DNA from: Flavobacterium daemonense
GTDB lineage: Bacteria; Bacteroidota; Bacteroidia; Flavobacteriales; Flavobacteriaceae
Direction of reading: 5' to 3'
DNA length: 64,000 nucleotides
NCBI RefSeq assembly: GCF_007341385.1
Contig: NZ_VJYD01000009.1
Coordinates: 62,001 to 126,000, forward strand
Shown here one piece after another: positions 15,751-62,486 of this stretch. How positions within the stretch are numbered: position 1 is the stretch's first letter; every line of letters starts with the position of its first letter. Both the position numbers and the translations under genes were made by a program. The notes under the pieces were generated by a model. It saw only the letters and a list, made by a program, of their open reading frames with translations, was not told where the DNA came from and searched no databases.

Positions 15751-17454
15751 ATGGCATTATCAGAACAAGAAATCATCAGAAGAGAAAAACTTCAAAACTT
15801 ACGCAATCTGGGAATCAATCCTTACCCAGCTAATCTTTTTCCTGTAAATCATACTTCGAAGCAGATAAAGGAAACTTTCGAGGAAGGTAAGAAGGTTATT
15901 GTTGCGGGACGTTTGATGAGTGTTCGTGATCAAGGTAAAGCTTGTTTTGCTGAGTTACAAGACAGCGAAGGACGTATTCAATTATACGTAAATCGCGATG
16001 TTTTATGTGAAGGCGACGATAAAACTTTATACAACCAAGTATTCAAAAAATTAACTGATTTAGGTGATTTTATTGGAATTGAAGGTGAATTATTCACTAC
16101 GCAAGTTGGTGCAAAATGTATTCGTGTAAGTGGTTTTACTTTCTTGAGTAAAACATTGCGTCCGTTGCCTTTGCCAAAAGTTGACGAAGAAGGAAACGTT
16201 CACGATGCTTTCAACGATGCTGAATTGCGTTACAGAATGCGTTATGTAGATTTAACTGTAAATCCGCAGGTTAAAGAAACATTTATTAAGCGTACAAAGT
16301 TGTTCAGCGCGATGCGTGGTTATTTTAACGATGCAGGATATCTTGAAGTTGATACTCCGGTGTTGCAGTCAATTCCTGGTGGTGCTTCGGCAAGACCTTT
16401 TATTACGCATCATAACTCGCTTGATATTCCGCTTTACATGCGTATTGCGAATGAGCTGTACTTAAAAAGATTAATTGTTGGTGGATTTGAAGGTGTCTAT
16501 GAGTTCTCTAGAAACTTCCGTAATGAAGGAATGGACAGAACACATAATCCTGAGTTTACTGCAATGGAAATATATGTAGCTTATAAAGACTACAACTGGA
16601 TGATGGAATTTGCAGAAGGCTTATTAGAGCATTGTGCGATTGCTGTAAATGGAACTAGTGAAGTTACTTTTGGCGAACACAAAATCAACTTTAAAGCGCC
16701 TTACGCACGTGTAACAATGACAGATTCTATCAAACACTTTACTGGTTTTGATATTTCTGGAAAATCTGAGCAAGAATTGTTTGAAGCAGCGCGCGGAATG
16801 GGAATCGAAGTTGACGAAACAATGGGTAAAGGAAAATTGATTGATGAGATTTTTGGAGCAAAATGTGAAGGAAATTATATTCAGCCAACTTTCATTACGG
16901 ATTATCCTAAAGAAATGTCGCCGCTTTGTAAAGAGCACCGCGATAATCCAGATTTAACTGAGCGTTTTGAATTAATGGTTTGTGGTAAAGAAATCGCAAA
17001 TGCTTATTCTGAATTAAATGACCCAATTGACCAAAGAGAGCGCTTTGAAGACCAAATGCGTCTTTCTGAAAAAGGTGATGATGAAGCAAACGGAATTATC
17101 GACGAGGATTTCTTAAGAGCTCTTGAATACGGTATGCCTCCAACTTCTGGAATGGGAATTGGAATGGATCGTTTGATTATGTATTTGACAAACAACGCTT
17201 CTATTCAAGAAGTTTTATTGTTTCCACAAATGCGTCCTGAGAAAAAACAAGCTCAGATCGAATTGACTGAAGAGGAAAAAGTAATTATTACTTTGCTAAA
17301 AGGAAACGAAAATAAAATGGAATTATCGCAACTTAAAGTTACTGCTAATTTAAGCGGTAAAAAATGGGATGCCTCTATGAAAAACTTATCTAAACACGGT
17401 TTGACTAAAGTTGTCGTTGACGGCGAGTTTAAGACTGTGGAATTGGTGGGATAG
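15751..17454 (+). CDS. lysS: Lysine-tRNA ligase with C-terminal extension
   Basis: A 567-residue class II lysyl-tRNA synthetase that charges tRNA-Lys. The N-terminal OB-fold anticodon-binding domain (about 50-150) is followed by the catalytic core with motif 2 (FRNEGMDRTHNPEFT) and motif 3 (GMGIGMDRLIMYLT). The core ends near LFPQMRPE at 490-497. About 70 further residues follow (IELTEEEKVIITLLKGNENK, then SQLKVTANLSGKKWDASMKNL), which look like a small winged-helix domain. Typical bacterial LysRS ends near 505 residues, so this tail is an addition. The gene is alone, with its own promoter and terminator. Confidence 0.97.
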   Translation: MALSEQEIIRREKLQNLRNLGINPYPANLFPVNHTSKQIKETFEEGKKVIVAGRLMSVRDQGKACFAELQDSEGRIQLYVNRDVLCEGDDKTLYNQVFKKLTDLGDFIGIEGELFTTQVGAKCIRVSGFTFLSKTLRPLPLPKVDEEGNVHDAFNDAELRYRMRYVDLTVNPQVKETFIKRTKLFSAMRGYFNDAGYLEVDTPVLQSIPGGASARPFITHHNSLDIPLYMRIANELYLKRLIVGGFEGVYEFSRNFRNEGMDRTHNPEFTAMEIYVAYKDYNWMMEFAEGLLEHCAIAVNGTSEVTFGEHKINFKAPYARVTMTDSIKHFTGFDISGKSEQELFEAARGMGIEVDETMGKGKLIDEIFGAKCEGNYIQPTFITDYPKEMSPLCKEHRDNPDLTERFELMVCGKEIANAYSELNDPIDQRERFEDQMRLSEKGDDEANGIIDEDFLRALEYGMPPTSGMGIGMDRLIMYLTNNASIQEVLLFPQMRPEKKQAQIELTEEEKVIITLLKGNENKMELSQLKVTANLSGKKWDASMKNLSKHGLTKVVVDGEFKTVELVG

Positions 17455-17480
17455 ATTTTGTTTTATTCTATTATAAATAC

Positions 17481-17515
17481 AACCCGATAGGTTTATAACT
17501 TATCGGGTTTTTTAT
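17481..17515 (+). terminator. lysS terminator
   Basis: AACCCGATA (17481-17489) pairs with TATCGGGTT (17501-17509), followed by a T-run, starting 27 bases after the lysS stop. Confidence 0.85.
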
Positions 17516-17554
17516 TAAATTCGTACGAAACAATAAATTTTAATCACCTCAATA

Positions 17555-18028
17555 ATGCCTTATATCATACTGCTTCTAATCATGTCAATGGTTTTTTGTT
17601 ATGAAATTTTCTTCGAAAAAGCCATTGTAACAAAAATTACTTCAAAAAGAAGGCAGAAAATTTTCGAATTATTAAAAAACAAATATGAAGGACTAAAAGA
17701 AAATGATTTAGGTTTCTTTGAATATTCGATAAGCAATAAAACTCTTTTGTTTGAATATATTTTAACAGAAGGCAGAAATAGATTAAATATCCTAAAGGTC
17801 TACTTAGACATTTCAACAATTGAAGAAGATATTAAACAACTCTGCAAAATCCATTTCTATTGTAAAAAAATTGACAATCGAGATTGGGTAGAAATGCCAG
17901 TAGAAGTGTTTTTTGATACATTGAATAATTTAGTAAAAAATTCAAGCAAAACCGTTTCCAATATAATCGCTGAAACCGAAAGTTATATTTCAGAAAAAAG
18001 AGTAGAAAGAGATAAAAATAAACGATAA
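17555..18028 (+). CDS. Hypothetical protein with N-terminal membrane segment
   Basis: A 157-residue protein that I do not recognise. Residues 1-20 (MPYIILLLIMSMVFCYEIFF) form a hydrophobic anchor or signal. The rest is charged, lysine- and glutamate-rich, and mostly helical, ending in a basic tail. The start is chosen because it directly precedes the hydrophobic segment. A 46-codon frame begins two bases after its stop, so the two are probably one transcript. The very high AT content and isolated position between two terminators are compatible with a transferred cassette, but this is weak inference. Confidence 0.6.
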   Translation: MPYIILLLIMSMVFCYEIFFEKAIVTKITSKRRQKIFELLKNKYEGLKENDLGFFEYSISNKTLLFEYILTEGRNRLNILKVYLDISTIEEDIKQLCKIHFYCKKIDNRDWVEMPVEVFFDTLNNLVKNSSKTVSNIIAETESYISEKRVERDKNKR

Positions 18029-18030
18029 CT

Positions 18031-18171
18031 ATGAAAATTTCAAAATTTTATCAATTCGAACAGCATGAATTAGATATGCTAAAAGAAAGCGAAGAAGATA
18101 TAAAATATGGCAGAGTTATTTCTCAAGAAGATTTAGACAATGAAGATCTTGAATGGCTCTCCGAAATATAA
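18031..18171 (+). CDS. Small acidic protein, resembles an antitoxin tail
   Basis: A 46-residue ORF starting two bases after the previous gene and ending five bases before a terminator. The product begins MKISKFYQFEQHELDMLKES. It continues with an acidic stretch reading EEDIKYGRVISQEDLDNEDL and a hydrophobic end with EWLSEI. The IKxGRxISxEDL pattern is reminiscent of the short C-terminal parts of Bacteroidota type II antitoxins, but no RelE/ParE toxin gene follows. The tight spacing suggests it is expressed with the 157-residue protein. Coding status is likely but not certain, and the function is unknown. Confidence 0.5.
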   Translation: MKISKFYQFEQHELDMLKESEEDIKYGRVISQEDLDNEDLEWLSEI

Positions 18172-18175
18172 ATTC

Positions 18176-18208
18176 AAACCCGACAGGTTTTAAAAACCTG
18201 TCGGGTTT
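18176..18208. terminator. Palindromic bidirectional terminator
   Basis: A near-perfect 33-bp palindrome beginning AAACCCGACAGG, followed by T-rich sequence. It lies between the 46-codon ORF and the convergent lipoprotein gene. The identical 33 bases recur at 49083-49115. Confidence 0.85.
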
Positions 18209-18217
18209 ATTTTTTTT

Positions 18218-18814
18218 TTAAAACGAATACTTCTCAAATTTTTTATCTGTAATATCCAAAACCTTGGTACTTTCTTTGGGACTTACGCCTTTCCAAATTT
18301 CCTGAACCGATGGATTTGATGGATATTTTCCATCTTTCATTCTTACAATGTGAAATTCATTGTTGCTTTCTATTATTAAATCAGAAAAATTTTCAGTGGA
18401 TGTATTTGCTATAAGAATTGGAAAATCGGTTACTGAAAAACGATTTATCAAGCTTCCGTCATTATTTAAAATATAACCTGAACAGCCTCCGCTTCCGCAG
18501 AAATAGGAGTTGGAGAAACCAACAAAATATTCGTTTTTATTATCATTATTTAGATCAAAAGCTTGGTAGTAAAAAAATCGGTCTGCTTTTGTCATGGCTG
18601 GCAAATCTTTCTCAAGCAAAATATTTAATTGTTTCCTAATCAATTCAACAGCTTTATCGTCTCTTGGCGGTGCATCACTTAAATTTGCCGTTCCGCCAAC
18701 TGTTTTTGACAAGGTATCTTGAATAATAGTTTTAACAATATTACTTGATTCTTTTTTGTTTTGGCAAGAATACAATGCCAGAATCCCGATTAAAATTAGA
18801 ATTTTACTTTTCAT
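18218..18814 (-). CDS. Lipoprotein of unknown function
   Basis: A lipoprotein of about 198 residues. I place the start at an internal ATG so that the product begins MKSKILILIGILALYSC, a clean lipoprotein signal; the longer frame starts with TTG and adds 11 residues with no role. The mature part contains FFYYQAFDLNNDNKNEYFVG, a calcium-loop-like DLNNDNKNE sequence, and then a Cys-Gly-rich segment (YFCGSGGCSGY). It ends with beta-type sequence. It may be an envelope protein with a repeat-like beta fold; no named family was recognised. It is downstream of the dehydrogenase gene on the same strand, 44 bases away. Confidence 0.65.
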   Translation of the reverse strand: MKSKILILIGILALYSCQNKKESSNIVKTIIQDTLSKTVGGTANLSDAPPRDDKAVELIRKQLNILLEKDLPAMTKADRFFYYQAFDLNNDNKNEYFVGFSNSYFCGSGGCSGYILNNDGSLINRFSVTDFPILIANTSTENFSDLIIESNNEFHIVRMKDGKYPSNPSVQEIWKGVSPKESTKVLDITDKKFEKYSF

Positions 18815-54515: not shown

Positions 54516-55331
54516 ATGAAAAATTCCAATCTTAAAATCTCAAATTCCAATAGAATTTTTCAGTTTACTTTTTTATTTATCGCGTTTTTTATCTGCAATA
54601 CTATTTTTGCGCAATTTACAATTCCCGAAATTCCAAGTGAACAAACTTCTGTTTATGATTATGCCAATCTTTTAAGCCCGACTGAAAAAGCACAGCTTGA
54701 AGAGAAACTTATTCGCTACTCAGATTCAACTACCACTCAGATTGTTGTCATAACAATTGAAAGCCTGAAAGGAGAAGATGTGAGTCAATTAGCGACAAAT
54801 TGGGGGCAAAAATGGGGAATTGGAGGAACCGCAAAAGATGATAACGGTGTTATTATTCTACTAGCAAAAGACGAGAAAAAAATCGCCATAAATCCTGGTT
54901 ACGGACTCGAAGATCGTTTGACAGCAGGAATTGGCGGTACTATAATTAGAAATATAATTGTCCCTGAATTTAAGGCGGGAAGTTTTTACAATGGCCTTGA
55001 TAAAGGTACAGATGCTATAATTGATGTTTTTAAAGGAAAATTCAAAGGAGAACGCAAACAATCCAAACAAAAAGATTTCCCGATATTGCCATTTATCGTT
55101 ATTATTGTAATCATACTAATCTTGCTTTCTCGCAATAAAAGAGGTGGCGGAGGAAATTCTGGGAATAATGGTGGAGGCCCTAGCCTTATGGATATCATTC
55201 TGTTAAGCAGTCTTGGCAGAAGCAGCGGAGGCGGATTTGGAGGTTTCGGCGGCGGATCATCTGGAGGTGGCTTCGGCGGTGGTTTCGGTGGCGGCGGATT
55301 CTCAGGAGGAGGTTCTAGTGGAGGCTGGTAA
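54516..55331 (+). CDS. Secreted TPM domain protein with glycine-rich tail
   Basis: A 271-residue membrane protein. The signal peptide (FQFTFLFIAFFICNTIFAQ) is preceded by a polar extension, KNSNLKISNSNR, encoded by a heptad repeat. The TPM domain is at about 40-165 (QTSVYDYANLLSPTEKAQL). One membrane segment is at about 187-203 (PFIVIIVIILILL). The last 40 residues are Gly/Ser/Phe repeats (GGFGGGSSGGGFGGG). With the other TPM protein and LemA, it forms a conserved membrane module, possibly in protein quality control; this is inference. Confidence 0.9.
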   Translation: MKNSNLKISNSNRIFQFTFLFIAFFICNTIFAQFTIPEIPSEQTSVYDYANLLSPTEKAQLEEKLIRYSDSTTTQIVVITIESLKGEDVSQLATNWGQKWGIGGTAKDDNGVIILLAKDEKKIAINPGYGLEDRLTAGIGGTIIRNIIVPEFKAGSFYNGLDKGTDAIIDVFKGKFKGERKQSKQKDFPILPFIVIIVIILILLSRNKRGGGGNSGNNGGGPSLMDIILLSSLGRSSGGGFGGFGGGSSGGGFGGGFGGGGFSGGGSSGGW

Positions 55332-55349
55332 GAATTTTTGTTTGAAGTT

Positions 55350-55398
55350 TTCTTTGTTTCACGTTTCAAAGTCTAGGTTTCAATCTTAAAAAATCATA
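55350..55398. repeat. Heptad tract after the TPM gene
   Basis: GTTTGAA GTTTTCT TTGTTTC, then ACGTTTC AAAGTCT AGGTTTC AATCTTA run in register. Confidence 0.55.
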
Positions 55399-55425
55399 CA
55401 TTTACACTTTACAATTTATTAATAG

Positions 55426-55839
55426 ATGTTATCACATAAAGCAAAATACGCCCTTAAGGCCTTACTTTATTTAGCTGAACAAGATGAAAATCACATTTCT
55501 AGAACTATAGAAATTGCTGATGGAGCCAACATACCTAAAAAGTTTTTAGAACAGATTCTTTTAGATCTAAAACGAGGACGTTTTGTAAGCAGCAAGCAAG
55601 GAAAATTTGGTGGATATTATCTGATAAAATCAAAAAATGACATCACTTTGGCAGAAATTCACCGATTATTTGACGGTGCAATTGCACTTTTGCCATGCGC
55701 TTCTTTAAATTTTTACGAGCCTTGCTCTGATTGTAAAACCGAGTCTGAATGCAGTCTGCGTCACGGTTTAATGCTAATTAGAGATAAAACTTTGAAGGCT
55801 ATGGAAGGCATCACAATTGCTTCATTAGTAAAAAAATAA
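55426..55839 (+). CDS. Rrf2 family transcriptional regulator with four cysteines
   Basis: A 137-residue regulator of the Rrf2 family (IscR/CymR/NsrR relatives). The winged helix is at about 5-70 (KYALKALLYLAEQDENHI; IPKKFLEQILLDLKRGRFV, then SSKQGKFGGYYL). Cysteines C91, C100, C103 and C109 occur in the region where IscR and NsrR hold an iron-sulfur cluster; their spacing (C-x8-C-x2-C-x5-C) differs from the common one. A cluster or thiol-based sensor is possible. It is directly upstream of the Cys-rich leader ORF and the TonB receptor, on the same strand, so regulation of that receptor is likely. Confidence 0.9.
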   Translation: MLSHKAKYALKALLYLAEQDENHISRTIEIADGANIPKKFLEQILLDLKRGRFVSSKQGKFGGYYLIKSKNDITLAEIHRLFDGAIALLPCASLNFYEPCSDCKTESECSLRHGLMLIRDKTLKAMEGITIASLVKK

Positions 55840-55881
55840 AAAAATATTTTCTAAAGTCTAGTAAATCGATAGAATTAATTA

Positions 55882-55889
55882 TATATTTG
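55882..55889 (+). promoter_or_regulatory. -7 element of the Cys-leader transcript
   Basis: TATATTTG matches TAnnTTTG, 39 bases before the leader start. Upstream is a weak dyad (TTCTA at 55850 and TAGAA at 55871, roughly), which might be an operator for the Rrf2 regulator. No TTG at the usual distance is present. Confidence 0.5.
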
Positions 55890-55928
55890 CCAAAAAATAA
55901 TTAACAAACCATTACAAATATTTAACTC

Positions 55929-56039
55929 ATGAAAGTAGATTTCGGTTTATTAGGCGTAACAACAAGTCTTTGGCAAACAAACTCAAATAGTCAGTTCAAA
56001 ACTGCAAAAAGCATTTCCTGTATGATGTGTATGTGTTGA
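55929..56039 (+). CDS. Leader ORF ending in a Cys/Met cluster
   Basis: A 36-codon ORF beginning MKVDFGLLGVTTSLWQ and ending with SCMMCMC just before the stop TGA. The ORF is 51 bases before the TonB receptor start, with its own -7 element. Three of the last six codons are TGT and the other three are ATG, apart from the leading ones, so translation should slow when charged tRNA-Cys (or Met) is scarce. Poly-Cys upstream ORFs controlling sulfur genes are known from actinobacteria; here a similar function is inferred. No strong terminator hairpin lies downstream, so control would be by coupling or Rho, not by a classical attenuator. The peptide itself has no signal or known domain. Confidence 0.65.
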   Translation: MKVDFGLLGVTTSLWQTNSNSQFKTAKSISCMMCMC

Positions 56040-56090
56040 TAAAAAAAATTTTATTATAAACTCTACTAATCATATATACTTAATATAAAA

Positions 56091-58637
56091 ATGAAAAATT
56101 CGATTAAAAATATACTTACAATATTAGCCGTTTTAACTGTTTCAATCTCATTTGGACAAAACATAGAAGGTTTCGTTAAAACAACAGAAAATACTCCATT
56201 AGAAGCCGCAAATGTTGTTATTAAAGGAACAACTACAAATACAATTACAGACGCTACCGGAAAATTTACTATCGATACAAAAGGAAAACTTCCGGTAACA
56301 CTTTTAGTTCAGTATGTTGGATATAAAACAACTGAAATCGAGATCGATGATTTACCTGCAACGCCTTTGCAAGTCATTTTAAAAGAAGAAAATGAACTTG
56401 TTGAAGTGGTGGTTTCTTCTCGACGCAGAATCGAAAAAGTACAAGATGTGCCAATTGCTATTTCTGTAATTACAGGAAAGCAGGCTGAACAAACAGGAGC
56501 TTTCAACGTTAACCGCATTAAAGAACTTGTTCCATCGCTACAACTTTATTCTTCAAATCCAAGAAATACGGGAATCAACATTCGTAGTTTGGGTTCTCCA
56601 TTCGGATTGACAAATGACGGAATCGATCCTGGAGTTGGTTTTTATGTTGACGGTGTTTATTACGCTCGTCCGGCTGCAACTACTTTGGACTTTATTGATG
56701 TTGAACAAATTGAAGTTTTGCGCGGACCACAAGGTTCTTTATTTGGAAAAAACACTACTTCGGGCGCTTTCAATATTACTACTAGAAAACCGAGTTTTTC
56801 TACAGGAGCAGATTTTGAAGTAAGCTATGGAAATTACAACTTTTTACAAGCTAAAGCATCGGTTACTGGGGCTTTGGGCAAAAAAGTTGCCGGAAGAATT
56901 TCGTTTTCAGGAACTCAAAGAGATGGTTTGATTGATAATATTGCGACAGGAAGACCAACAAATACTTTGAACAATCAAGGGATTAGAGGACAATTACTTT
57001 GGACGCCTTCTGTAAATACAAATATTATTTTGGCTGCTGATATCACAACACAACGTCCTGACGGATATGCACAGGTTGTGGCTGGTGTTGCTCCTACTCA
57101 AAGAGCTGCTTACCGTCAGTTTGATGCAATCATCAAAGATTTAAATTATCAATTGCCAAGTTTAAATGCTTTTGACCGTAAAATTGATCAAGATACACCT
57201 TGGCGTTCAAATCAAGATATGGGAGGTATTTCGCTTAATATTGATACGAAAATTGGCCCAGGAACTTTGACTTCAACAACAGCTTGGAGATTCTGGAACT
57301 GGGATCCATCAAATGACAGGGACTTTACAGGACTTCAAGTATTGGCTAAATCACAAAACCCAACAAGACAAACGCAGGTAACGCAAGAGGTTCGTTATGC
57401 GGGTCAGCTTTCTTCAAAAGTGAGCGGTGTTGCTGGAGTGTTTTTTATTGATCAAACTTCACAAACTGATGGTACAGAAGAATCTGGAAATGCACAATGG
57501 AGATTCTCTCAAAGTACAACGAGCCCATTATGGAAAACTCCGGGACTTTTTGAAGGATATGGAATCAAAACCGATGCAAACATTAGATCATCAAGTGCTG
57601 CAGTATTTGGACAAATTGATTGGGCGGTTACAGAACGCTTTCACGTTTTGCCTGGTTTAAGATATAACTTCGATAAAAAAGATGCTCATTATGCACGTAC
57701 AACTTACGGAGGTTTGCAAACTAATGATCCAGCATTGATTGCTTTGAAAAAATCAGTTTACTCTGATCAGGCTTTTGATTCAAGTACAGACAATACCGAT
57801 TTTTCAGGAAACTTGACATTGACCTATAAAGTTACAGACAAAATCAATGCTTATGCAACATACGCTAAAAGCTACAAACCAGTTGGTGTAAACGTTGCTG
57901 GCCTTCCAACAGATGCAAAAGGCAATCCTATGCTTGATCTTGCGGTAATTAAACCAGAAAAAGTTAATCATTATGAAATTGGAGTAAAAACTTCTCCATT
58001 CAAAAATTCGATTTTCAACTTGACGTTCTTCAACACAGATATTAAAGATTTTCAAACAAACGTTCAAGCTGCTGAATTAGGTGTAAACCGTGGTTATCTT
58101 GCAAATGCTGACAAAGTACGCGTAAGAGGTGCCGAATTAGATGCGAGCTTTGTTTTCAGCACACATTTAACTGTAAATGCTGCCGCAACTTATACAGATG
58201 GAAAATATGTGAAATTTACAAATGCTCCGCTTCCATTAGAAGAAACTGGCGCTCCTGTAGCTTTCAAAGATGTTTCAGGAACTGAATTACCTGGAGCTTC
58301 AAGATGGGCAGGATCATTGGGCGGTGAGCTTTCTGACAATGCAACATTCTTTGGAAACAAAGGGAAAATATTTGTAGCTGTTGATTCATACGCACGTTCT
58401 GAATTTTCATCAAGCCCTTCGGCTTCAAAATATTTAGTTGTACCAGGTTATGCTATTTTTAATGCACGTTTAGGTTTCCGCGCTTCGCAAGGTTTATCTG
58501 TTCACTTTTGGGGACGCAACTTGTTGAATAAAGATTATTACGAGCAATTATTGCCTGCTGGAGGTAATGCAGGACAATATGCTGGTGTTCTTGGTGATCA
58601 AAGAACTTACGGAGTTACTCTAAAATATTCTCTGTAA
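56091..58637 (+). CDS. TonB-dependent receptor
   Basis: An 848-residue TonB-dependent outer-membrane receptor. Signal peptide (about 1-23), a carboxypeptidase-like regulatory domain at about 24-105 (GFVKTTENTPLEAANVVIKG), then plug (VEVVVSSRRRIEKVQDVPIA; PGVGFYVDGVYYARPAATTL; VLRGPQGSLFGKNTTSGAFN), and a barrel ending GVTLKYSL. It is not SusC type and has no SusD partner. The plug resembles receptors for small organic or iron-chelate ligands. An Rrf2 gene and the Cys-rich leader upstream suggest a sulfur-related nutrient; this is inference. Its 3' end is followed by a terminator. Confidence 0.94.
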   Translation: MKNSIKNILTILAVLTVSISFGQNIEGFVKTTENTPLEAANVVIKGTTTNTITDATGKFTIDTKGKLPVTLLVQYVGYKTTEIEIDDLPATPLQVILKEENELVEVVVSSRRRIEKVQDVPIAISVITGKQAEQTGAFNVNRIKELVPSLQLYSSNPRNTGINIRSLGSPFGLTNDGIDPGVGFYVDGVYYARPAATTLDFIDVEQIEVLRGPQGSLFGKNTTSGAFNITTRKPSFSTGADFEVSYGNYNFLQAKASVTGALGKKVAGRISFSGTQRDGLIDNIATGRPTNTLNNQGIRGQLLWTPSVNTNIILAADITTQRPDGYAQVVAGVAPTQRAAYRQFDAIIKDLNYQLPSLNAFDRKIDQDTPWRSNQDMGGISLNIDTKIGPGTLTSTTAWRFWNWDPSNDRDFTGLQVLAKSQNPTRQTQVTQEVRYAGQLSSKVSGVAGVFFIDQTSQTDGTEESGNAQWRFSQSTTSPLWKTPGLFEGYGIKTDANIRSSSAAVFGQIDWAVTERFHVLPGLRYNFDKKDAHYARTTYGGLQTNDPALIALKKSVYSDQAFDSSTDNTDFSGNLTLTYKVTDKINAYATYAKSYKPVGVNVAGLPTDAKGNPMLDLAVIKPEKVNHYEIGVKTSPFKNSIFNLTFFNTDIKDFQTNVQAAELGVNRGYLANADKVRVRGAELDASFVFSTHLTVNAAATYTDGKYVKFTNAPLPLEETGAPVAFKDVSGTELPGASRWAGSLGGELSDNATFFGNKGKIFVAVDSYARSEFSSSPSASKYLVVPGYAIFNARLGFRASQGLSVHFWGRNLLNKDYYEQLLPAGGNAGQYAGVLGDQRTYGVTLKYSL

Positions 58638-58803: not shown

Positions 58804-59541
58804 ATGAAATTTCTCAAATTATTGGTTTTATTCGGATTAGTAAGTCCGCTTTTATCGGCACAAAATGTAAAAAAAACTGATCAGCAGACTTTAAGCTGGA
58901 TTCGTTATTACAACATTTTGCCTTTAAGCGAAAAATGGGCACTTCATTCTGAATTTGATAATCGTTTTTTTCTCAATCCAGTTCACGAAAATCTTTTTGT
59001 ACTAAGATCTCAGGTTCGTTTTCGTGCCAGCAAGCTTGTCGAATTAGGAGGTGGTTTGGCTTTTTTCAGCGTAAATACACAAAACCCAGACATTGATCCA
59101 AATTTTTCTGTTCCAGAATATCGAATCCAGCAAGATATTACGTTGATTAATGACATTGCAAAAATCACTTTTCACAATCGTTTTCAGCTTGAAGAACGCT
59201 TTATCGAAAAAGCTTCACGAACAGAATTACTAGACACTTTCTCATTTGCACTCCGATTCCGTTACCGATTACAGTCGACTTTTGATCTTTGGAAAAAAGA
59301 TGGGAGAAGCTTAAAAGGTACAATTTCAGATGAAGTAATGTTCAATTTTGGAAAAGACAACAAACTAAATACTTTTGATCAAAACCGATTTTACGTCGCG
59401 CTCCGTTATCACTTTAATCCCAATTTAGGTTTAGAACTTGGTTACATAAAAAACTTTCAAAGACGCGCCAGCGGTATCGATTTTTATGATCGCGATATTA
59501 TTCGTTTTACAGTTTATCATCGAATTGATAGGAAGTTTTGA
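58804..59541 (+). CDS. DUF2490 outer-membrane protein
   Basis: A 245-residue secreted protein with a signal peptide (MKFLKLLVLFGLVSPLLSAQ) and alternating strands typical of a 10- to 12-strand outer-membrane barrel. The family features are SWIRYYNILPLSEKWALHSE and the C-terminal FYVALRYHFNPNLGLELGYI. It has no known ligand. It follows the TonB receptor gene after a terminator and 160 bases, so it is probably an independent unit. Confidence 0.85.
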   Translation: MKFLKLLVLFGLVSPLLSAQNVKKTDQQTLSWIRYYNILPLSEKWALHSEFDNRFFLNPVHENLFVLRSQVRFRASKLVELGGGLAFFSVNTQNPDIDPNFSVPEYRIQQDITLINDIAKITFHNRFQLEERFIEKASRTELLDTFSFALRFRYRLQSTFDLWKKDGRSLKGTISDEVMFNFGKDNKLNTFDQNRFYVALRYHFNPNLGLELGYIKNFQRRASGIDFYDRDIIRFTVYHRIDRKF

Positions 59542-59729: not shown

Positions 59730-62486
59730 CTACTCCTCTCTTTCTCGGCCTCTTCTCTTACCTTTTTCATTTCCTGCAAAATTCCCGATTTTGTAGGCCA
59801 ATGAAAACATGATATATCTTTTTAAAACGGTGTTTTCTTCATCGCGGATTGAAGTTGCTGAAATTGTTCTTACAGCACTTTGATTCTGATTTAAAACATC
59901 ATATACTTTCACTTTTGCGTACAGTTTTTTATCTAAAAATCCGTATGACAAACTCGTATTCCATAAGTAGAAATCTTTTTTGAAATCGCTTGAAATATTC
60001 GAATTGTATGTATATCCAAAATCATTTCCAAAAATCAACTTAGCAGGCCAGTAACTTGTTGTCTGCAAATTGATTCGGTGTACAACATTTGAGGTTGCAT
60101 CGCGGGTATAATTCTCATATTTCGTCTCATTATACGTCAAACTATATGATGGCGCAATAACCAGCAATTCGCCATATTCATATGCCAAATAGATTTTTGG
60201 CGTTACGGCAGTACCTTTTGCATTATACAAAACTCCATTTGTGTAGCCTTTATCAAAATTGTAAGTTCCGTTTAACTGTAAACCGTAACGAAGCGTGTGC
60301 GCATCTCTTTTAACCGACTGATTCCAGTTTCCTCCGACAGAAAAAGTATAAGTATCAGACAAATTCAGATACGTTGTAGTTCTTTTTCCACTATCGTCAT
60401 AAAATGAAGTCGAATAAATATCATTCGCATAATAGTCTCCTCGTGCATAAAGACTATAACCTGAACGCGTACGGAAATCAAAATTTCTGAAACTGAAATT
60501 GATACTGTTTTTTTCAATTGGATCCAAATTTGGATTTCCAATAATGGTATTCAGCGGGTTACTCAAATTAGCAATTGGCAGTAAAAAACTCGAAGCCGGG
60601 AGCGTATTTGAATAGTCGTATTTAAATGTAAAATTCTTTGAACGGCTAAACTTGTAACGAAACTGTGCAGTAGCATAAGGCAACGCATATTTCTGATTCA
60701 AATCGGTTGATTTTCCTAAATAAAAACCGTGATTGTCATAATCAATAATCGAAGTTTTTGTGTCTAAATTTACCGTGAATTTATTTTTTTGAAGCGTAAT
60801 TCCAAACTTCGGACTAATCGAATTTTGCTTTGAAGTCGTATAAGTTGTCAACGATTCATTTATCTGAGAATATGACTGAGAACTAGCATCAAAATCAAAT
60901 GTTTTTTGATCTTTTATTTCTTTCTGCCAATCAAAATCAGAACCAAATCGAATGCGCAATGAATCTGTAATTGGTTCCGTATATTCAATATCTAGCGAAT
61001 AAGCATCGTTCACGTTATCATTTCTCGTTTTTTGATTTCGCTCATCATTTGGTTTGTTGTCCTGATAAAAAATAGTTTCCGAAACATTGACTCCATCTGT
61101 AATTGCATCAGTATTATTGTTATCAAAAACAAAACTCAAATTACGGTTCTTTTTCGCAAAAGCTTTGTTGAAATTAAGTGTATTTGCAAAATTGGTCGTC
61201 GTATTTTCTCGATGAGAAACCGCCGTACTTTCGTTTAAGGGCTGATTATTTTCATCTTCAGAAGAACTTGAAGAAGACGAATCGCTATCAACTCTTGTTT
61301 GATTAAATTTTGGAGTAAAAACAATTCGGGTGCTTGGATCTAGTTTGTATTCAAATTCAAAATTGGCTTTATTTCCTGTATTCTCATTTTTGGTTTTAGA
61401 ATCAGAAGCGGTCAAGATATTTCCCGTCGGCAAAAAATTCAGCTGATTTGCTTTGCTGTCGTTATTTGTAATGGTGTTCGAAAAATTATAACTTCCTGTT
61501 GCTGTAAAATCTTTAAACCAGTCATCAGAATAATTGATTCCGGCCAAATTAGATTGTGTAATTCCCTTGCCAGTTGTCGTGCTGGCCTGATTTACACTAT
61601 TATTTCTTCCGCCTCCCATATTGTCAAAAACATCATCCATAGAGAAACCAGTCGAATTAATATTATTTGACGAAGCCAAAACACTAATCTTCTGATTATT
61701 ATTGAAGAAATTCATCAACAAACTGCTTTCATAACGATTATCAGAACCGTAACCGGCAAGTGCTTTTTCAAAAAAACCTTTATTTTTCTTTTCGTCGATT
61801 GTGAAATTAATTGATGAATTATCGGAGCTGGATTCCTGCTTGGCAAGTTCTTCTTTCTTGGTTTTATAATCGGAAACCTGAACTTTTTTAATTATTTCAG
61901 CTGGCATATTCTTCAATAAAAGCTGTCCATCTTTATCAAAAAATGCTTTTCCGTTGACTAAAAACTGCGTTACTTCTCGCCCATTTACAGTGACTTTTCC
62001 GTCATTATCAACATCAACACCAGGCAGTTGTTTTAATAAAGTTTCAACATTGGCATCTGGCCTCACTTTAAACGCCGAGGCATTAAATTCCAAAGTATCT
62101 TTTTTAATGGCGACTGGAGGCGCTTCGGTTTTAATGACTACATTTTCAAGCGCATTTATATTTTCTGCCAAATAAAGCTTTCCAAAATCCTTGCTTTCTA
62201 TCAGCTCTTTCTGTTCTTCAACCAAAGTTTGATAGCCCATATAATTGACTTTCAAATAAACAGGCTTATTTATTTTTTTTGTATTTATTCTGAAAACTCC
62301 ATTTTTGTCGGTAGTTGCATATTCAATTACAGCAGAATCCTTTACGGTTGTAAAATATACAGTCGCCATTTCAAGCGGAACCTGTGTGTTAAGATCTACG
62401 ACGGTTCCTTTGAGAATAATATCATTTTGCGCATTGGCGGCAACGCAAAAAAGAAAAAATAATAAATAAGAAAAATACTTGGTCAT
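59730..62486 (-). CDS. Outer-membrane beta-barrel protein with TonB-receptor-like plug
   Basis: A protein of about 918 residues. I place the start at 62486 because the product then begins MTKYFSYLLFFLFCVAANAQ, a clean signal peptide; the longer frame adds 12 residues. A carboxypeptidase-like domain (GTVVDLNTQVPLEMATVYFT) is followed by a plug with DTLEFNASAFKVRPDANVET and QLPGVDVDNDGKVTVNGREV, the hallmark of the large outer-membrane barrel family related to TonB receptors. The barrel ends before a basic tail (GNEKGKRRGREREE). The family is thought to transport unknown substrates. Divergent regulators are not visible. Confidence 0.9.
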   Translation of the reverse strand: MTKYFSYLLFFLFCVAANAQNDIILKGTVVDLNTQVPLEMATVYFTTVKDSAVIEYATTDKNGVFRINTKKINKPVYLKVNYMGYQTLVEEQKELIESKDFGKLYLAENINALENVVIKTEAPPVAIKKDTLEFNASAFKVRPDANVETLLKQLPGVDVDNDGKVTVNGREVTQFLVNGKAFFDKDGQLLLKNMPAEIIKKVQVSDYKTKKEELAKQESSSDNSSINFTIDEKKNKGFFEKALAGYGSDNRYESSLLMNFFNNNQKISVLASSNNINSTGFSMDDVFDNMGGGRNNSVNQASTTTGKGITQSNLAGINYSDDWFKDFTATGSYNFSNTITNNDSKANQLNFLPTGNILTASDSKTKNENTGNKANFEFEYKLDPSTRIVFTPKFNQTRVDSDSSSSSSSEDENNQPLNESTAVSHRENTTTNFANTLNFNKAFAKKNRNLSFVFDNNNTDAITDGVNVSETIFYQDNKPNDERNQKTRNDNVNDAYSLDIEYTEPITDSLRIRFGSDFDWQKEIKDQKTFDFDASSQSYSQINESLTTYTTSKQNSISPKFGITLQKNKFTVNLDTKTSIIDYDNHGFYLGKSTDLNQKYALPYATAQFRYKFSRSKNFTFKYDYSNTLPASSFLLPIANLSNPLNTIIGNPNLDPIEKNSINFSFRNFDFRTRSGYSLYARGDYYANDIYSTSFYDDSGKRTTTYLNLSDTYTFSVGGNWNQSVKRDAHTLRYGLQLNGTYNFDKGYTNGVLYNAKGTAVTPKIYLAYEYGELLVIAPSYSLTYNETKYENYTRDATSNVVHRINLQTTSYWPAKLIFGNDFGYTYNSNISSDFKKDFYLWNTSLSYGFLDKKLYAKVKVYDVLNQNQSAVRTISATSIRDEENTVLKRYIMFSLAYKIGNFAGNEKGKRRGREREE

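Follow-up and report, generated by a model that had tools for sequence, protein, structure and literature searches.

A cysteine- and methionine-ended upstream ORF before a TonB-dependent receptor gene of Flavobacterium: a candidate leader peptide for sulfur supply

A short open reading frame (ORF) lies between an Rrf2-type regulator gene and a TonB-dependent receptor gene in Flavobacterium daemonense, within the 64,000 nucleotides (nt) of contig NZ_VJYD01000009.1 analysed here (positions 62,001 to 126,000; hereafter the window). Our essential contention, which we consider quite likely, is that this upstream ORF (uORF) encodes a leader peptide and, through its Cys and Met codons and together with the Rrf2 regulator, controls a probable sulfur-nutrient receptor according to the supply of sulfur amino acids. 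That supply probably sets the receptor level, because many relatives in three families keep Cys codons in the leader. Sequence comparison shows that the Cys/Met end of the uORF is under selection and that uORFs of other families, though mostly unrelated, also carry Cys codons; it further reveals operator-like palindromes, links to sulfur genes and neighbouring tRNA-Cys genes. A first-pass annotation had proposed sulfur-amino-acid control of the receptor from this one locus, and the proposal is now partly supported, with more behind it than a single sequence could give; a conserved Cys/Met-ended ORF, Cys-run ORFs in two other families and a sulfur-linked regulator and neighbours speak for it, whereas some receptor orthologs have no Cys pair in their leaders.

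The leader and its conservation within Flavobacterium

The 36-codon uORF with its Ser-Cys-Met-Met-Cys-Met-Cys end is as that annotation described it, and so are the flanking genes, with an Rrf2 regulator (PF02082) upstream and a TonB receptor (PF00593, PF07715) downstream. The distances were also given correctly: 51 bases (56040-56090) separate the uORF stop from the receptor ATG at 56091 on the same strand, and 39 bases separate the uORF start from a TAnnTTTG element, which we take to be the Bacteroidota -7 promoter element. Absent from that description were two operator-like elements, O1 and O2, that bracket the uORF. The locus is arranged as follows.

55426-55839, + strand: Rrf2-family transcription regulator, 137 residues (PF02082, E 2.5e-32)
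55857-55873, no strand: O1, operator-like palindrome TCTA-N9-TAGA just 5' of the promoter element (from sequence and comparison)
55882-55889, + strand: TAnnTTTG element, TATATTTG (from sequence; position conserved)
55929-56039, + strand: uORF of 36 codons, MKVDFGLLGVTTSLWQTNSNSQFKTAKSISCMMCMC, stop TGA (from sequence)
56019-56036, + strand: presumed sensor, Cys-Met-Met-Cys-Met-Cys codons (from uORF comparison)
56062-56078, no strand: O2, operator-like element TCTACTAATCATATATA, right half imperfect (from sequence and comparison)
56091-58637, + strand: TonB-dependent receptor (PF00593, E 1.7e-41; PF07715; PF13715)
58804-59541, + strand: DUF2490 outer-membrane-type protein (PF10677, E 3.7e-36)

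The window uORF matches no Pfam and no NCBIfam family at E up to 1, and in an Rfam scan of 55300-56400 the four matches with E up to 5 fell far short of their gathering scores.

Conservation was assessed in two sets of leaders. A search of named genomes with the receptor gave 493 relatives, of which the best 80 were kept; these are 79-96% identical over the best segment and named Flavobacterium, four records being named Flavobacteriaceae or [Flexibacter], and with the window they make 81 leaders. Environmental species with the locus include F. denitrificans DSM 15936 (L033) and F. resistens DSM 19382 (L032). A uORF ending with two nearby Cys codons is present in 79 of them, and both exceptions keep one Cys (MMCMWW in L085 and MMCMS in L103; L denotes a locus, G a genome, with G000 the genome of the window, and f3 and f4 are families other than Flavobacteriaceae). 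The second set came from searching 249 genomes of the genus with the O2 pattern alone, which yielded 70 matches in 69 genomes, the reversed pattern yielding none among the matches listed. A uORF with Cys in its last seven residues precedes O2 in 68 of these 70 loci, and an open frame of more than 300 codons follows directly in 65; another ATG comes first in three (L254, L278, L281), and two are unrelated (L243, L277).

When the two sets, whose species overlap, were pooled, 151 of 153 leaders provided 118 distinct uORFs. In each leader we took the longest frame that starts with ATG, has 20-70 codons, stops no more than 45 nt before O2 and carries Cys or Met in its last six residues. At least two Cys fall within the last seven residues in 116 of the 118, and C-x-C within the last eight in 113. 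The combined fraction of Met and Cys is 0.80 in the last six residues against 0.004 before the last eight, so that the presumed regulatory codons cluster near the stop, as in an attenuator. Cys is written as TGT 227 times and as TGC 46 times. Between the uORF stop and O2 the spacer measures 18 to 27 nt, with each of these lengths represented, or else 29 or 31 nt; in 39 of the 118 it is a multiple of three. Finally, pN/pS over the distinct uORFs (a crude measure from uncorrected counts, using pairs up to 25% different) is 0.17 in the last eight codons against 0.82 in the remainder, and therefore the end matters and the rest of the peptide hardly does. Because of this ratio, the clustering of Cys and Met, the use of both TGT and TGC and the variable spacer, we conclude from comparison within the genus that the uORF end is selected as codons. 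Such selection on the frame supports translation of the uORF. The codon-level conservation for which the first-pass annotation had asked therefore holds at the constrained end in Flavobacterium, but not in some orthologs of other genera, which have no Cys end.

A short precursor-like ORF that adjoins a TonB receptor and has a conserved Cys-rich C-terminus might instead encode a small functional or secreted peptide, such as a modified metallophore precursor, that the receptor re-imports without any sensing. We regard this as highly improbable, since the N-terminal part of the peptide evolves almost freely and peptides from different families are for the most part unrelated; nor was any peptide-modification gene noticed among the listed neighbours, although no search was aimed at one.

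How far the exact motif extends was examined in 199 genomes of the family, representing 198 genera. The window uORF used as a protein query has matches below E 1 in 32 of them, the next best outside its own genome lying at E 0.02 to 0.05, and among these the match in G127 (E 0.048) does lie in a receptor leader. The remaining loci were taken as chance; L002 and L008 were checked for the MCMC pattern, with no result. That pattern has 17 matches in 16 of the genomes. Receptor leaders account for those in G000 and G127 alone, so that in this sample the exact motif does not extend beyond the genus. A looser form of the pattern matched twice in the window's own genome against three times for the reversed control.

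Leaders of the same receptor in other genera and families

Receptor orthologs at E up to 1e-100 occur in five of the 199 family genomes, namely G000, G127 of the same genus, and G094, G110 and G172 of other genera. The G094 leader carries a candidate Cys-pair ORF, MPSTRYDMKGPGTCCSGNFKHKNILFI, which lies between a tRNA-Cys gene and the receptor and ends 25 nt before the ATG. Across the phylum, 26 of 395 genomes have orthologs at E up to 1e-120, and 11 of these loci (L296-L306) are outside the family. Runs of Cys are found in the uORFs of L297 (HCCCCCCC), L300 (RCCCCNSTC), L298 (RCCMCS), all of f4, and L305 (SSCCCC), of f3; L296 possibly has MCC, and the other six leaders have no or a weak Cys-run uORF.

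An ortholog is present in 71 of 339 f4 genomes, and 70 were analysed, G955 with its partial match being left out. We defined a Cys-pair ORF as one with an ATG start, at least six codons and at least two Cys within four codons, and used 100 dinucleotide shuffles and the antisense strand as controls. Such an ORF is present in 42 of the 70 leaders, against a shuffle mean of 6.3 (largest 13) and 8 of 70 on the antisense strand. With at least three Cys in four codons the count is 20 of 70, against a mean of 0.22 and a single antisense case. Outside the Cys codons the f4 peptides are mostly unrelated, those of close species being alike (for example L323, L325 and L329), and the number, spacing and place of the Cys residues differ widely among the uORFs from outside the genus. 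Comparison of leaders along the lines that the first-pass annotation recommended gave Cys-run ORFs before the same receptor in f3 and f4, and receptor leaders with the exact MCMC motif in Flavobacterium alone among the family genomes.

There is a further regularity in f4. Arg precedes an adjacent Cys pair in 24 of 38 cases, its codon being CGA in 24 of 25, and the exact octamer CGATGTTG (Arg CGA, Cys TGT, TG-) recurs in 29 of 70 leaders though the flanks differ (in L313, for example, it lies 96 nt before the receptor ATG). This octamer lends itself to the view that DNA or RNA sequence alone is at work, with a double Rrf2 operator, a uORF that is a by-product and an end that is conserved as a nucleotide motif. 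The very strong conservation of O1 and O2 in the genus fits that view, as does a hairpin predicted for the window between O2 and the end of the uORF (z -2.45). It is nevertheless quite unlikely in our estimation, given that 27 of the 29 leaders have an upstream ATG in frame with the octamer, that f4 Cys runs exist without the octamer in L335, L369, L373 and L374, that the hairpin does not covary, and that in Flavobacterium the uORF end combines low pN/pS with the use of both Cys codons.

The Rrf2 regulator, operator-like palindromes and sulfur genes

The Rrf2 protein encoded at 55426-55839 probably regulates the receptor gene. It exceeds the NCBIfam cut-off for the Rrf2 superfamily (101.7 against 73.3 bits) and falls under the equivalog cut-offs for CymR (50.5 against 195 bits) and IscR (56.4 against 207.55). 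A paralog in the same genome, 50% identical (G000:C29:152346-152747), lies about 1.2 kb from an operon with TauE and phosphoadenosine phosphosulfate (PAPS) reductase domains. Similar proteins are encoded in 141 of the 199 family genomes, and by eye they adjoin PAPS-reductase-like genes or genes for enzymes like the pyridoxal-phosphate (PLP) enzymes of Cys/Met metabolism in many of 28 other-genus loci; Pfam confirmed two such neighbours in L162, plus the cluster in L194. The regulator is probably a sulfur regulator. No Cys-run uORF was seen between Rrf2 paralog and PAPS-reductase genes in 13 loci of other genera.

O1 in the form YCTA-N9-[AT]AGR (right half relaxed), with TAnnTTTG starting 24-27 nt later, is present in 78 of the 81 Flavobacterium leaders, and O2 is present in all 81, with the next ATG 10-14 nt on in 79. 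O2 stands directly before the matched receptor start in 76; three leaders (L096, L102, L110) have another ATG 12 nt after O2, upstream of the start of the match, and two (L036, L045) have an out-of-frame ATG 4 nt after it. The palindrome YCTA-N9-TAGR is found in 56 of the 70 f4 leaders (shuffles 1.05, largest 3), with at least two copies in 20 (shuffles 0), and it starts no more than 75 nt from the receptor ATG in 24. In a 20-kb stretch of the window's own genome, both matches fall in the intergenic region ahead of the TauE/PAPS-reductase-domain (cys) operon, a count of 2 against 0.47 expected that 15 of 200 shuffles reach; in the window three are found against 2.02 expected, which is no enrichment. 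Because the bare pattern is not significant, the weight given to the operators rests on position and comparison; O1 and O2 are putative Rrf2 binding sites. In G110 (L191/L195) there is a second palindrome, CATACTAAAAAGGTATG, between promoter element and uORF, and CCCTACCAAATAGGTAGGG stands before the promoter.

Sulfur genes are found around the receptor as well as around relatives of the regulator. Pfam tests of receptor neighbours, made on ten chosen proteins and not as a census, identified chromate-type transporters (ChrA) in L102, L195 and L320, TauE in L195, L323 and L331, and a siroheme-synthesis domain and a Cys/Met PLP enzyme in L323. Beside the receptor in L294 (G635) follows a substrate-binding protein of the PBP_like_2 type (PF12849), a possible hint to an anion as ligand. 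DUF2490-like proteins come after the receptor in many of the compared loci, as seen by eye (L318 alone was tested by Pfam), and the DUF2490 gene of the window is possibly in one operon with the receptor.

A tRNA-Cys(GCA) gene follows shortly after the receptor, on the same strand, in 10 of the 70 f4 loci (L300, identical with L313, and L314, L317, L318, L320, L325, L326, L328, L348 and L349), and the tRNA-Cys in the G094 leader is a second genomic copy, another being located elsewhere in that genome. There is no tRNA-Cys gene in the window, nor in the 18 scanned of the 80 Flavobacterium loci. The only other tRNA in the f4 loci is a tRNA-Ala, a long way upstream in L359; L337 has a transfer-messenger RNA (tmRNA). 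Features that bear on tRNA-Cys and on RNA control elsewhere, with coordinates within each locus, are these.

L300, 4238-4309, + strand: tRNA-Cys after the receptor, an f4 example
L196, 6599-6670, - strand: tRNA-Cys(GCA) inside the G094 receptor leader
L194 (own genome), 17320-18348, - strand: two tandem Met/Cys leader ORFs, MKLIICNMMSCQMSEFSAEILL and MKTIAKNMMCCRMMQMCIPTCCCQK, before a gene for a Cys/Met PLP enzyme (metY-like)
L194, 13667-13775, - strand: S-adenosylmethionine (SAM) riboswitch RF00162, 78 bits
L194, 18183-18289, + strand: SAM-II RF01726, 49.2 bits, shortly before the gene for SAM synthetase

The sulfur region of L194 therefore appears to hold several kinds of RNA control on sulfur genes. 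Each of its two leader ORFs is followed by a terminator-like hairpin with a T-run, as judged from sequence and fold, and G127 has the second as well, its terminator being almost the same. A protein search with the leader gave matches in 15 of the 199 genomes at E up to 5, that in G127 being real and no Met/Cys leader being recognised in nine checked of the 13 other matching genomes. The receptor leader resembles these own-genome leaders in that the peptide is rich in codons of the amino acid concerned, and differs in that they carry terminator-like hairpins and it has none.

A model for control and its relation to known leaders

We propose a model in which the Cys and Met codons of the uORF would serve as a measure of how much tRNA-Cys and tRNA-Met is charged. 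In a shortage of sulfur amino acids the ribosome would slow at the uORF end, which would raise expression of the receptor, and perhaps also of the DUF2490 protein, downstream. Rrf2 would act on the same unit by way of two sites, O1 at the promoter and O2 close ahead of the receptor gene. For the coupling step, a stalled ribosome would most likely shield the nearly G-free spacer from Rho or decay (the last 50 nt of the leader have 0.7% G and 10% C, which fits Rho or nothing in particular); alternatively, it may act on RNA polymerase held at O2. Translation, stalling, the upward response in starvation, the coupling and Rrf2 binding to O1 and O2 are all inferred, as is the presence of sulfur in the receptor ligand.

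Since O2 lies just ahead of the receptor start, a repressor roadblock (or a second promoter) suggests itself, and such a roadblock combined with the uORF would be a new circuit. As a more elaborate version, possible and on balance rather unlikely, the leader may have two inputs: an Rrf2-type sulfur repressor at O2 would hold RNA polymerase, and a ribosome on the uORF, trailing by roughly the distance from uORF to O2, would decide between release and termination. Where the operon also makes tRNA-Cys, as it would in some lineages, the circuit would feed back on the tRNA it senses.

Several observations weigh against the proposal that sulfur amino acids are sensed through leader codons. The first-pass annotation had named homologous loci with no conserved Cys end as evidence that would count against it, and such loci exist: the G110 leader has Rrf2, palindrome and promoter element but an 18-codon uORF without Cys (MKSPLTSSLYKQAPIRIR), that of G172 has the palindrome but no ORF with two Cys in 420 nt, and 28 of 70 f4 leaders have no short Cys-pair ORF, although G094 and 42 of the 70 do keep one. 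The f4 octamer is more nucleotide identity than Cys sensing needs. Exact palindromes flank the uORF on both sides in only 8 of the 42 f4 Cys-pair leaders, standing only before it in 14, only after it in 12 and on neither side in 8, and the operator pattern searched across the whole genome with two mismatches gives 38 matches against 44 for the reversed control. Lastly, the output step is not visible, because the window leader has no terminator and no covarying hairpin.

The absence of an intrinsic terminator had been noted at first pass, and a terminator scan of the window leader likewise found nothing. A terminator-like structure occurs in one of 81 Flavobacterium leaders (L087) and in 6 of 70 f4 leaders, and we reject an intrinsic terminator as the general mechanism. 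The predicted hairpin of the window leader, lying between O2 and the uORF end (z for 106 nt as given above, against +0.79 for the whole leader), was rejected too, none of its five consensus pairs being changed on both sides in 58 of the 81 leaders. A tract of seven or more T lies between uORF and receptor, mostly just before the palindrome at O2, in 16 of 42 f4 leaders with a Cys uORF (shuffles 2.9); no stable hairpin precedes it (mean z -0.31). At a similar place 77 of 81 Flavobacterium leaders have an A-run.

The nearest analogues are in Actinobacteria, where the first-pass annotation had pointed to polycysteine uORFs, and the literature bears this out. Two papers describe actinobacterial cys leaders that lack a terminator and have their Cys runs close to the stop (PMC1262725, Seliverstov 2005; PMC4633059), Rho being suggested in the former, where the mycobacterial cases too show no such output structure (PMC1262725), and a mycobacterial set is reported as cysteine-responsive (Canestrari 2020). 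These leaders share with ours a short ORF, a Cys run near the stop, a sulfur-gene setting and no intrinsic terminator found; unlike them, ours belong to another phylum, precede an outer-membrane receptor, have in Flavobacterium Met as well as Cys and palindromes on both sides, and in some loci adjoin a tRNA-Cys gene. The window uORF is also probably not leaderless, because 39 nt lie between promoter element and start, which is another difference from the actinobacterial leaders.

The Cys/Met end could also bind copper(I) or another metal as the peptide emerges, with a receptor that imports a metal complex, and CMMCMC and poly-Cys are in general good soft-metal ligands; the best-scoring solved relatives of the receptor, moreover, are pesticin, colicin I and siderophore receptors. 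There is a precedent in CruR, a copper sensor of the DUF2946 family with 145 residues, predicted export, and CXXC and RAPP at a conserved spacing (PMC9426467). CruR/bfrG resembles our locus in having a uORF with Cys residues directly ahead of a TonB receptor gene, and its termination is Rho-dependent and not intrinsic (PMC9426467); in the window leader, likewise, no intrinsic terminator was found. Unlike CruR, the window uORF has no DUF2946 match (Pfam and NCBIfam, E up to 1) and no RAPP, which is absent from all the listed Flavobacterium and f4 uORFs, though it does have C-MM-C, by chance or design. The varying number, spacing and place of Cys, and the sulfur genes and tRNA-Cys nearby, also argue against a metal sensor, which we judge unlikely.

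Within Bacteroidota, passages of two papers report leader-peptide attenuation, inferred ahead of amino-acid operons in a flavobacterium (PMC9723704), and leader-like small ORFs in Bacteroides (PMC7366714); neither set of passages names a cysteine leader or a leader peptide on a TonB receptor. The earlier statement that no case was known for outer-membrane uptake in Bacteroidota agrees with our search of the open-licence literature, a body that leaves out most subscription papers: neither a Cys leader from Bacteroidota nor a TonB receptor under an amino-acid leader came to light there.

If sulfur amino-acid supply does control the receptor through its leader, then leader peptides built on amino-acid codons would govern passage across the outer membrane and not biosynthesis alone. 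The Bacteroidota would have a cysteine type of their own that shows no visible relationship to the actinobacterial one. A TonB receptor family would, moreover, gain a physiological role, in sulfur supply, and the leader would offer a ready reporter for sulfur limitation.

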